Below, piece by piece: positions 28,966 through 33,060 of a DNA stretch of 64,000 nt (position 1 is its first letter; each line of letters begins with the position of its first letter). The DNA comes from Halonotius aquaticus (GTDB lineage: Archaea; Halobacteriota; Halobacteria; Halobacteriales; Haloferacaceae), in contig NZ_QKNY01000009.1 in the NCBI RefSeq assembly GCF_003605575.1, positions 124,001 through 188,000 on the forward strand, in the 5' to 3' direction. The notes below the pieces were generated by a model. The model searched no databases. It was given only the letters and a program-made list of their open reading frames with translations, and was not told the DNA's origin. The translations under genes and the position numbers were made by a program.

Positions 28966-31900
28966 CTACCAGTATTGTTCGAGGCCGGTCTGTGTTTGGC
29001 CGGTTTTGATCTCATCCCACGACATATCGAGGGCTTCGATGACACGGGAGATCGGCCCCTTGAGCGTCTTCTCCAACATCGTTTCGAGGTCGATCTCGAA
29101 TTCGTCGGGGAGTTGGTCGGCATACTCGAAACAGATCACATCGGGATCGCGCTTGAACTCGCCGTAGAGGGGATCTTGCCGTGGATCAAGCCCCTGCTCG
29201 TCTTCCATCCGGCGGAAAAACGAGGAGTGAACATCCTTGAGGTAGAGCCGCTTGGGTTTCGAGCCGCGATCGAAGTTGGTGCCAAGGAGGAGATTGGCGT
29301 ACTGCGCACCCCGAACCTGTGCGGTCGGCGTTTCGTAGGCATCGAGTCGCTTGCCGATGCCGCCAGGGATGCCGATCTCTTCGACGCTTCGTTCGCCATT
29401 AAGGAACTCCTCGATAACCGTCGTCAGGTATGTTCGAACTTCCTCGCGGTCGGCTTCCATGTCGTCGCCGGTGACGATGGTTTCGATCACCTCTTTCTGG
29501 ACGCGCTTGGTGATCGGTGCGATATCCGAGCGTTTGTACTCGAAGCCGGTGATGTCGATGTCGTCGACATCCTTGCCCTCCTTCCAGATGATGTGGCCGG
29601 CGTACCGCTTCTTGCGACCGGCTTGGAAGAACCGTCGGTAGAGCTTTTCAAATTCGATCTGGAAGCGGTGCTCGTCGGCGTTGAGTTCGTTGCTTGCGAA
29701 ATCGTCGTAGCGGCTGTTGATGTACTCCTCGATCTCGAAGGATTGCTCGATAGCGTCCGACTTTTTTTCACTTCCATCCAACTCTAACATAACGCTATCC
29801 GTATCGCCGTATGCGACTTCGTAATCGAGTTCGCTGGCGACGGTTTCGGTGAAATCGATTACCTCACGGCCGGTCGCCGTGACAGCTGCCGCGCCCTCCT
29901 TGTCGTAGAGCCGGAACCGATCCCACCCCGTTACGCCATAAAGGCTATTCATAATAACCTTGACAGCTGCCTGTTGAGTGTCGTAAATGGCGTACTTGGA
30001 GCTATCTGGGTCGTGTTTATTCCGCAGTTCTTTCTTTTCCTCTCGTTCTGTTAACAGTTCATCAACCATCTCGCGCATGATGCCGTCCGGCTCTTTCCGG
30101 AACCGGGTGCCGTTGGGCGCACGGTAGGTCTCACCCTCGAAGTCCTCGTCGACCTTCGTTTCAGGGCCGGCGTTGATCGTCACCATACACATTGGGTACA
30201 AACTCTTTAGATCTAGTACACTGATGTTTTCGCGGACGCCAGTAATCGGATCGAAGACGGCTCCGCCCTCAAAATCCTCGGACTCCTGTTGTCCTTTTGT
30301 CGGTAATGCGAACTTTCCATACGCCTTGTGCAGCACGTACTGGTCGACGGCGTCGCCCGGTGTCGGCGCGTCTTCGATCTTACAGCCGACGAACTTGCGG
30401 ACTTCGTCCCAGAAATCAATCAGACCTTGCTTGCGGTCGATCTCGACACAGAGTTCCACGTCCCGGAGATTGTATTCGAGGAGGCGTTTCGGTTCCTCTT
30501 CCCAGAGATCGCCGATGTCGCCGGCGTATCGCTCCTTACCAACGCCGAGTTCGAGTTCGCCGACAGCGTCGAGGCGATAGGAGTCGAGTTCGGTGAACTG
30601 CGTGCGCTTGTAGCCGTAGAGGAGATCGAAAACGACCCGGCCCTTGATATCAGGGCCACCCCACCCGGATCGCCATACCTCATCGATCCGAGAAAGGCGG
30701 TCGACCGAGAGATTGTACTGACTCGCCGGACCAATCTCTTCCATCCGGTCGAGGAAGTACGGGACATCGAAATCCTCACAGTTATGAACGAGACAATCAT
30801 CCGCGAAGAAATTGTGCGTGGTCGTCTCGATGTCGTAGGTCGTCTCCGTCCCGACACGCTCCACGTCCTCAACTTTTACAAACACGTACTCCTGCCACTC
30901 GTCGAGAGTCGTTTCGTGTCGTTTGAGGCTGATCCCTCGGCGGTGTTTATCTCGACCGATCCGCCGGTCGTCGGTTCCGGTGTCGGCCTCAAAGAGCGCG
31001 TACGGGATGTTCTCGCTTCGGCCGCTCTTTCCGCCGTCCAGTGCTTTCAACGCGTCTCGCTTTTCGGAGTGAGAGAGGTGTGGAAGAACCCTGTCTCTGA
31101 GCCGCTGGATCTCACGCTCCGCGTCCGGTACTCGAACCACGTTCTCGCGCTGCTCTGCGTAGATGCCGAGTCGGCGAAATAACTTTGCGTACCATCGTCC
31201 GATAGACCGATTTTCGGCCGCAACGGTCACCGAAGACGAGACGTGCCCGTCTCCGTCGATAACGCCCGCCAAGAACCGTTCTATGTACGATTCCGGAAGT
31301 TCGAAAACCTTCGAGAGATCGACATCTCCCTCGTTTTTGTCGCCGAACGGAATCCCGAGCCCGTTGAACGCGTACATGCGGGTGTAGTCCAGTACGTTCT
31401 GCTTGTAGCAGCCCTTTCCGTCGGGTTCGAGACGCGTCTCACCGGGGAACTGTTGGTGTAACTCTTCGTGCGTGTTATAGAAACGGATGCCGTCATCGGA
31501 CGAGATCGTCCCGTCCGTGAGAACGAGGCCCGCAAGATACAGTTCGTGTTCCGTGAGTTCCCTGTCGAGGTCGTTCCGCGTGCGGCGGTACTCCCGCCCG
31601 CCATCAGGAAGCGCAACGTCGTACCGGTCAGCCGCGAGTTGACAGCGCTCTGGAGTCCATATATCTGTATCTGGGTGATATAACGTTCCCGTAGTGAGGC
31701 CGAACTCCGATGCGAGTTCCGAGACCGCACCGGACGGGAGTTCGGATTTGAACGATTTGATCGCCTCTGTACTCCCGAACCGCTGGCATTCGACCGGGAC
31801 GAGATCACTGAGGGTCGGAACACGCTCCGAGTCGATATTCAATTGTCGCGGTTTGAGGAGATAGTCCCCAACTTCGATCTCTCCCCCCTCCTTCCAGTCG

Positions 31901-33060
31901 ACTTGATCATCGTCACCAACCATCACACGATGATCCGCTGAACTGCGGAGATCAGTTCCGTCTGCAAGCCTGTATCTGAGAATCTCTTTCTCGCTTTCCC
32001 ATTTGTTCGTGACCTCCGCAGTCGTTGTCCGCTGGTCGTCGCTCCCCAACACCTTGTCGCCGACAGATACGTCCTCGATCCGTTCCTCAGTCCCGTCCGC
32101 TTTGAGAATTTGACTATCCGCCGGTAGACAGTTCCACCCGGTGAAGAGATCCGGATCGGTATCCTCGATGTAGTCGATAAACGCATCCAGCATCGCCGCC
32201 TCGGAGTCGTAGGTTCGGACATCGACCGCAATGTCGTCCTGATATGGGTCGTAATCGGGGAGATCGGTCGGTATCTCGCCGTCGCCGTCGGGCGCCTCGT
32301 AGAGCCATGCAATATACTCCTCATCGAAGGAGTCGTAGCTCGTGAGACAGACGATCGGCTCCTCGCCATCCTCGGGAAAGCCCCGGCGGTCGTCGACCTC
32401 GATGTCGAAGATGTTGACTCGGAGGTCGCTGTCGACATCGGCAGGGACAACCTCGGTGTGGGGGACTTGGATCGTGTCGCTTTCGAGCCGTCGCTCCGAG
32501 ACCTCGATCCCGCTGTTGATGCCCTTATCGATCAGAAATCGGTTCGGAAACAGAATGTCGGCCTCGTAGTGGTCAAACTCGTCGCGAACCTCGCCCACGT
32601 CACGCGGCGTGCGGCCGATGATCTTCGTCAGTTGCTCGCCGCGAATACTCTCGAAGGAGTCGCCGTCGGGGTCGGTCTCTCGGCTGTCGACGATGACATC
32701 GTACGCCTCCTCGGGCGGCGTGTCGAGTGAGTCAGTTGGGACGTAGAAGTAGGGCTCAAACCCGAGGACACGGACGTGTTCGTGAGTGCCGTCCTCGCGG
32801 CGGCCGAAGACGTGGATCACAGGGTGTTCCTCGCGGCCACCGCCCTCGATGGTGTAATCGACCTGTGTGACCATCAAGTCGACTGTCCCCGTTGAGTCAG
32901 GGAACTTCGCGTCCTCAACGTCGACGACCTCGCTGATCCGACCGCCGCCGTTGCCGGCGACGACCGCGGCCGCATCGGCGGGGTCAGTCGCGTCCGCAGC
33001 ATCCGTCTCGTCGTCGGCATCGTCGGCAGGGGAGAAAGACGAGAGATCCGACTGTGTCAT
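28966..33060 (-). CDS. polB: DNA polymerase B (family B replicative type) with intein
   Basis: A 1364-residue precursor: 914 residues of polymerase and a 450-residue intein (separate entry). Exonuclease motif I is NIFDIEVDD (D219, E221), motif II is split by the intein at GWN/C with EDFDVPY, and motif III is YNLRDVELC. Polymerase motifs A (LDLKSLYPMCM), B (KVIMNSLYGVTG) and C (YGDTDSVM) are uninterrupted. The C terminus QTGLEQYW matches a PIP box, so it should bind PCNA. After protein splicing it should be an active replicative polymerase with proofreading. A TATA element (33081-33090) lies upstream. sufC lies downstream on the same strand. Confidence 0.94.
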   Translation of the reverse strand: MTQSDLSSFSPADDADDETDAADATDPADAAAVVAGNGGGRISEVVDVEDAKFPDSTGTVDLMVTQVDYTIEGGGREEHPVIHVFGRREDGTHEHVRVLGFEPYFYVPTDSLDTPPEEAYDVIVDSRETDPDGDSFESIRGEQLTKIIGRTPRDVGEVRDEFDHYEADILFPNRFLIDKGINSGIEVSERRLESDTIQVPHTEVVPADVDSDLRVNIFDIEVDDRRGFPEDGEEPIVCLTSYDSFDEEYIAWLYEAPDGDGEIPTDLPDYDPYQDDIAVDVRTYDSEAAMLDAFIDYIEDTDPDLFTGWNCLPADSQILKADGTEERIEDVSVGDKVLGSDDQRTTTAEVTNKWESEKEILRYRLADGTDLRSSADHRVMVGDDDQVDWKEGGEIEVGDYLLKPRQLNIDSERVPTLSDLVPVECQRFGSTEAIKSFKSELPSGAVSELASEFGLTTGTLYHPDTDIWTPERCQLAADRYDVALPDGGREYRRTRNDLDRELTEHELYLAGLVLTDGTISSDDGIRFYNTHEELHQQFPGETRLEPDGKGCYKQNVLDYTRMYAFNGLGIPFGDKNEGDVDLSKVFELPESYIERFLAGVIDGDGHVSSSVTVAAENRSIGRWYAKLFRRLGIYAEQRENVVRVPDAEREIQRLRDRVLPHLSHSEKRDALKALDGGKSGRSENIPYALFEADTGTDDRRIGRDKHRRGISLKRHETTLDEWQEYVFVKVEDVERVGTETTYDIETTTHNFFADDCLVHNCEDFDVPYFLDRMEEIGPASQYNLSVDRLSRIDEVWRSGWGGPDIKGRVVFDLLYGYKRTQFTELDSYRLDAVGELELGVGKERYAGDIGDLWEEEPKRLLEYNLRDVELCVEIDRKQGLIDFWDEVRKFVGCKIEDAPTPGDAVDQYVLHKAYGKFALPTKGQQESEDFEGGAVFDPITGVRENISVLDLKSLYPMCMVTINAGPETKVDEDFEGETYRAPNGTRFRKEPDGIMREMVDELLTEREEKKELRNKHDPDSSKYAIYDTQQAAVKVIMNSLYGVTGWDRFRLYDKEGAAAVTATGREVIDFTETVASELDYEVAYGDTDSVMLELDGSEKKSDAIEQSFEIEEYINSRYDDFASNELNADEHRFQIEFEKLYRRFFQAGRKKRYAGHIIWKEGKDVDDIDITGFEYKRSDIAPITKRVQKEVIETIVTGDDMEADREEVRTYLTTVIEEFLNGERSVEEIGIPGGIGKRLDAYETPTAQVRGAQYANLLLGTNFDRGSKPKRLYLKDVHSSFFRRMEDEQGLDPRQDPLYGEFKRDPDVICFEYADQLPDEFEIDLETMLEKTLKGPISRVIEALDMSWDEIKTGQTQTGLEQYW
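30781..32130 (-). mobile_element. Intein with LAGLIDADG homing endonuclease in PolB
   Basis: Residues 311-760 of the precursor. The first residue is Cys (CLPADSQILK) and the last two are His-Asn before the extein Cys (LVHN/C), the normal chemistry for splicing. Block B is RSSADHRVMV. The endonuclease motifs are LAGLVLTDG and LAGVIDGDG, both with the catalytic aspartates. The terminal block is HNFFADDCLVHN. All required residues are present, so both splicing and homing may be intact. The insertion site is the exonuclease II motif, GWN/CEDFD. Confidence 0.93.

Follow-up and report, generated by a model that had tools for sequence, protein, structure and literature searches.

An intein in exonuclease motif II of the family B DNA polymerase of Halonotius aquaticus, with evidence for spread by homing and co-conversion of the splicing nucleophile

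The polB gene of Halonotius aquaticus, in the analysed window of 64,000 nucleotides, carries an intein that is positioned by alignment within exonuclease (exo) motif II of the polymerase. We consider it highly probable that this element, a full-length class 1 LAGLIDADG intein, circulates in the haloarchaeal class and has spread by homing accompanied by co-conversion of its flanks. It represents a known, though uncommon, class rather than a new kind of element. The host gene, the intein and its endonuclease motifs are located as follows.

28966..33060, minus strand: precursor of PolB (family B DNA polymerase), 1364 aa with exteins of 310 and 604 aa, from the open reading frame and its translation
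30781..32130, minus strand: intein of 450 aa, class 1 with LAGLIDADG endonuclease, from translation, Pfam and same-site homologues
31504..31539, minus strand: first LAGLIDADG dodecapeptide YLAGLVLTDGTI with catalytic Asp206, which like Gly207 is invariant across the 17 sequences compared
31240..31275, minus strand: second LAGLIDADG dodecapeptide FLAGVIDGDGHV with catalytic Asp294, which like Gly295 is invariant across the 17 sequences compared

The host was recognised by the Pfam domains DNA_pol_B (162 bits) and DNA_pol_B_exo1 (69 bits), and Pfam, the alignment described below and motifs A-C together give both exonuclease and polymerase domains with motifs that are whole once spliced. Bases 30781-32130 of the minus strand, coordinates which the preliminary description had placed correctly to the base, form an in-frame insert of 450 codons with no stop (CLPADSQ...DDCLVHN) that starts with CLPADSQILKADGTEE and ends with TTYDIETTTHNFFADDCLVHN, with the extein residues FTGWN before it and CEDFDVPYF after it. 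Polymerase motifs A (DLKSLYP), B (IMNSLYG) and C (YGDTDS) are all uninterrupted and free of inteins, in agreement with that description. The spliced region TGWN-CEDFD aligns to TGWN-VESFD of the phage T4/RB69-type polymerase gp43 (PDB 1clq). Because the insertion point falls in this alignment between gp43 residues 217 and 218, five residues ahead of Asp222, the intein does split exo motif II, which bears out the proofreading-domain location given earlier. Asp222 of gp43 is a known metal ligand of the exonuclease. Proofreading would depend on splicing, and the unspliced precursor would presumably be unable to proofread. By sequence, the exonuclease region is far closer to T4/RB69 gp43 (E=5e-27) than to the Thermococcales PolB structures (best E=2e-13).

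The intein matches the Pfam family Intein_splicing over residues 9-450 (52.9 bits, cut-off 35.8), and both LAGLIDADG_3 and Hom_end exceed their Pfam cut-offs. Full-length homologues at the exo II site are 60-89% identical to it, and across 17 homologues the N-terminal CLP, block-B His67, Asp206, Asp294 and the terminal CLVHN are invariant. The sequence features of a class 1 intein are found: an invariant Cys at position 1, the block-B His within SSADHRVM, and a C-terminal His-Asn followed by Cys in the invariant LVHN|C; likewise, two dodecapeptides each with a catalytic Asp are present, as expected of a LAGLIDADG endonuclease. The earlier view that the splice junctions and both LAGLIDADG motifs look functional is thus sustained by intact blocks and conserved catalytic residues, and the intein is predicted to be active in both splicing and cleavage. 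A chance open frame is ruled out by the 450 open codons, the presence of all intein blocks and the occurrence at one conserved site across many families. An AlphaFold model of the intein built from 17 sequences (mean pLDDT 51, pTM 0.33) was judged unusable.

An intein occupies the exo II site in 24 of the 391 haloarchaeal genomes, and these 24 belong to many families; 20 copies are full-length and open, counting the present one, another lies in a severely damaged polB (G038) and three are of Haloquadratum walsbyi type. Carriers include Halorubrum rubrum, Hrr. alkaliphilum, Halorubrum sp. Hd13, Halobellus captivus ZY8, Halorientalis, Natrialba hulunbeirensis, Natrarchaeobius, Saliphagus, Natronomonas aquatica, Haloarchaeobius, Halorutilus salinus and H. 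walsbyi J07HQW2. The comparison of relatives for empty sites, which the preliminary description had proposed, gave an empty site in the sister species (G231, the sole same-genus species in the sample) and in 365 other genomes. Fixation of a degenerate endonuclease throughout the relatives, named there as evidence against the reading, is not the pattern found: 366 of the 391 genomes are empty, and the endonuclease is intact in most carriers and decayed in the three H. walsbyi-type copies. The H. walsbyi intein shares the insertion point (GWN|CDDFD), the Cys at +1 and homologous splicing ends, but its endonuclease is decayed in three genomes and inteins are also present at motifs B and C, whereas H. 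aquaticus has an intact endonuclease and no intein at motifs A, B or C; the PolB of H. walsbyi was reported as filled at all three then-known sites (PMC3024317). Two of the H. walsbyi-type genomes (G316 and G313; among L082, L027-L029 and L087) show frame shifts within short simple repeats midway through the intein. The sole PolB found in G038, a single-contig Halorubrum-group genome (C1:2936897-2941516; L025, L083, L088, L089), carries the same intein and has several frameshifts and stops in intein and exteins, a partial duplication within the intein and no motif B region, being either a misassembly or a truly broken gene.

Four PolB intein sites are seen in these haloarchaeal data, namely motif A (DLK|C), motif B (IMN|C), motif C (YGD|S) and exo II. 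Four haloarchaeal alleles, polB-a to polB-d, have been published, with polB-d in 6 of 118 genomes (Soucy et al. 2014, PMC4071816). Since the other three sites lie at motifs A-C, the exo II intein would by elimination be polB-d, which it resembles as a rare fourth site (24/391 here). The published Archaeoglobus profundus member of polB-d was unconfirmed, as PolBs of the Archaeoglobus family have a contiguous exo II region. Outside Halobacteria, the phylum-wide search returned only inteins of topoisomerase/reverse-gyrase type (L085-L086), and the viral contigs searched yielded neither a confirmed relative nor a GWNC scar. Four viral GWN|C[LF]P matches were rejected as inteins of unrelated phage proteins; these head-morphogenesis-like and ATPase-like proteins (IMG/VR L214, L215, L216, L217) hold inteins at a GWN|C tripeptide context. 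A viral PolB on IMGVR_UViG_3300003314_000001 (L213, 4019-4042) has the empty site GWNFEDFD, so polymerases of viruses might act as alternative targets or as carriers. Elsewhere in the H. aquaticus genome, outside the window, inteins occur in RfcS (replication factor C small subunit) and the PolD large subunit (L001; L002/L004; C13, C10) at sites where the host +1 residue is Thr or Cys. In kind, the PolB intein is an ordinary haloarchaeal replication-gene intein.

The residue that follows the intein separates filled from empty alleles.

30778..30780, minus strand: +1 Cys codon (TGT) of the C-extein, where the empty sister allele has Phe (TTC), from comparison of filled and empty alleles

Cys occupies +1 in 24 of 24 filled alleles and in 0 of 366 empty ones with no exception, in counts from the 391 sampled genomes of the class that include related and hence not independent genomes. 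The empty-site pattern GWNC[ED]DFD matched none of the 391 genomes and GWNF[ED]DFD matched 304, the same-genus G231 among them. The remaining 63 genomes (neither carrier nor GWNF match) were read one by one; one was without a polB match and the other 62 empty alleles have F (48), V (8), A (3), L (1), Y (1) or S (1) at +1, so that Phe is the native residue in 352 of 366. The GWN/CEDFD junction of the preliminary description therefore describes the invaded gene correctly, but the native, uninvaded site is GWN/FEDFD. The single Ser allele (L150, genome G382; GWNSNDFD) comes from the same genus as the invaded G217 (L026). At the motif A site (L009, L013, L014, L024), filled alleles start DLK|CFS and empty ones read DLKS.

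Because Phe cannot serve as the C-extein nucleophile, an intein inserted at the native Phe codon of this replication gene would be unable to splice, and the Cys codon would have to arrive with the intein. As Cys stands at +1 in all filled alleles and in no empty one, the intein appears to carry its own splicing nucleophile into the host by co-conversion. The principle is already known from the MCM-d intein of Haloferacales (PMC10643990), where filled alleles have the +1 nucleophile (Ser), empty ones mostly lack it (Pro), a viable Pro allele was not obtained and +1 co-conversion is required. MCM-d differs in host protein and intein, and the PolB exo II site differs in its native Phe and in a dichotomy without exception; the extension of the principle to this PolB allele is what is added here.

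The flanks of the intein bear a second trace of the same process.

32131..32170, minus strand: upstream presumed co-conversion tract, ~40 bp, including the GWN codons, with informative sites like those of intein-bearing Halorubrum-group alleles
30700..30780, minus strand: downstream presumed co-conversion tract, ~81 bp, on the same basis, with three sister-like sites (+9, +28, +46)

In the far exteins the H. aquaticus gene is 0.87 identical in nucleotides to the empty sister and 0.72-0.75 to the Halorubrum-group carriers, while near the intein the order is reversed: identity is 0.69 to the sister vs 0.85 to the carriers over the last 15 upstream codons, 0.78 vs 0.90 over the first 15 downstream codons and 0.49 vs 0.73 over the following 15. 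With informative sites defined as those at which the sister and the intein-bearing Halorubrum-group alleles differ, and the +1 codon left out, 25 of 33 sites within -60..+90 bp are donor-like compared with 49 of 227 elsewhere (p=1.7e-9). The donor-like stretch extends from about -40 to +81 bp and includes four sister-like sites, so it may either be mosaic or have diverged since. The window of -60..+90 bp was picked on the H. aquaticus allele. When five further carriers were each compared over this window with the nearest empty relative, four had the footprint (uncorrected p: L008, 7e-7; L009, 3e-6; L010, 0.01; L007, 0.02) and one, L011, had none (p=0.74, uncorrected). Break repair is the probable cause of these flank mosaics.

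From these observations we propose the following course. The precursor would splice by the standard route through Cys1, block-B His67, His449-Asn450 and Cys+1 to give GWN-CEDFD, and the endonuclease would cut empty GWN|F[ED]DFD alleles, by which the intein spreads. A viable invasion would need the +1 codon to be swapped as well, Phe being unable to act as nucleophile, and during repair the Cys codon and some 40-90 bp of flanking sequence would be copied across; the mosaic is observed, and the repair mechanism deduced from it. The H. aquaticus copy probably entered after the split from the sister species and is a member of an intein lineage shared with the Halorubrum group; transfer may have run from that group to the H. 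aquaticus lineage, the other way, or into both from a third source. The spliced polymerase would retain a Phe-to-Cys change adjoining the conserved Asn of exo motif II.

The timing was examined from trees and synonymous divergence. In the far-extein tree H. aquaticus groups with the empty sister G231 (100/100) and the carriers are scattered among empty Halorubrum, while in the intein tree it groups with five Halorubrum-group inteins (100/99); its own genus and Halorubrum together require at least 5 changes of state (gains or losses). Nucleotide identity to the Halorubrum-group copies is 0.87-0.88 in the intein, where the far exteins reach only the values given above. Since the intein dS to the nearest copies (L007-L009) is 0.44-0.56, lower than the extein dS between H. 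aquaticus and its sister (0.65), the invasion would postdate the split of the sister species. Past homing of the exo II intein is thus well supported by the sequence comparisons, and ongoing homing is a possibility. The suggestion of recent homing holds in the sense of an arrival after that split, but with dS ~0.44 to its closest sampled relative the intein does not appear to be a brand-new arrival from any sampled donor.

That distance also agrees with a reading in which homing has stopped, the intein is now vertical in its own species and the endonuclease domain is retained merely for splicing, for which the absence of very recent transfer speaks and which we regard as possible but doubtful. 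The dN/dS of the endonuclease region is 0.10-0.11, similar to the splicing regions, and points to purifying selection. Part of this could come from selection for splicing if splicing needs the endonuclease domain, because splicing of the Haloferax volcanii PolB-c intein is reportedly sensitive to endonuclease-domain mutations, according to the title of a reference cited in PMC10643990. PolB-c is likewise a LAGLIDADG intein in polB, with experimentally active homing (PMC3024317), but it is inserted in the C-terminal polymerase part and not in the exonuclease domain. Against a halt in homing stand the two catalytic Asp residues conserved in all full-length copies, the repeated gains or losses noted above and the H. 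walsbyi copies, whose decayed endonucleases beside an intact C-terminal splicing block suggest that an active endonuclease is not demanded for splicing at this site.

Vertical inheritance, with the intein present in the common ancestor of Halonotius and Halorubrum and lost by the sister species and most Halorubrum, finds some agreement in pairs concordant in both trees (L015/L017, L012/L013) and is already disfavoured; we rate it very unlikely. The intein dS to Halorubrum is about half that of the exteins (0.93-1.46) and lies below the own-sister extein value, the flank mosaics oppose it, and the trace GWN|CEDFD expected of precise loss was found in 0 of 366 empty alleles, so that loss would need replacement by empty alleles. 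Recruitment of the intein to switch PolB proofreading or replication post-translationally is the least credible reading, since its position in an active-site motif, which should leave the unspliced protein without a proper exonuclease site, is outweighed by the patchy distribution, the empty sister species and repeated gain, by the lack of a growth defect after removal of the Hfx. volcanii PolB intein (PMC7776575) and a reported 7% fitness cost of carrying it (PMC10643990), and no result of this analysis favours regulation.

Spread by homing with co-conversion makes the exo II intein a clean natural case of a target that lacks the splicing residue, in which homing and flank copying must be coupled, and the flank mosaics provide a natural estimate of the repair-tract length, some 40-90 bp per side. 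The Cys-vs-Phe codon offers a near one-base marker across the class that distinguishes never-invaded from precisely cured alleles, and because the Cys scar is absent from the empty alleles, precise deletion of the intein seems to be rare and any loss may proceed through replacement by an empty allele. It is improbable, in our estimate, that each invasion, by fixing the change from Phe to Cys next to the conserved exo II Asn, measurably alters proofreading; if it does, carriage and loss of the intein would affect the mutation rate.
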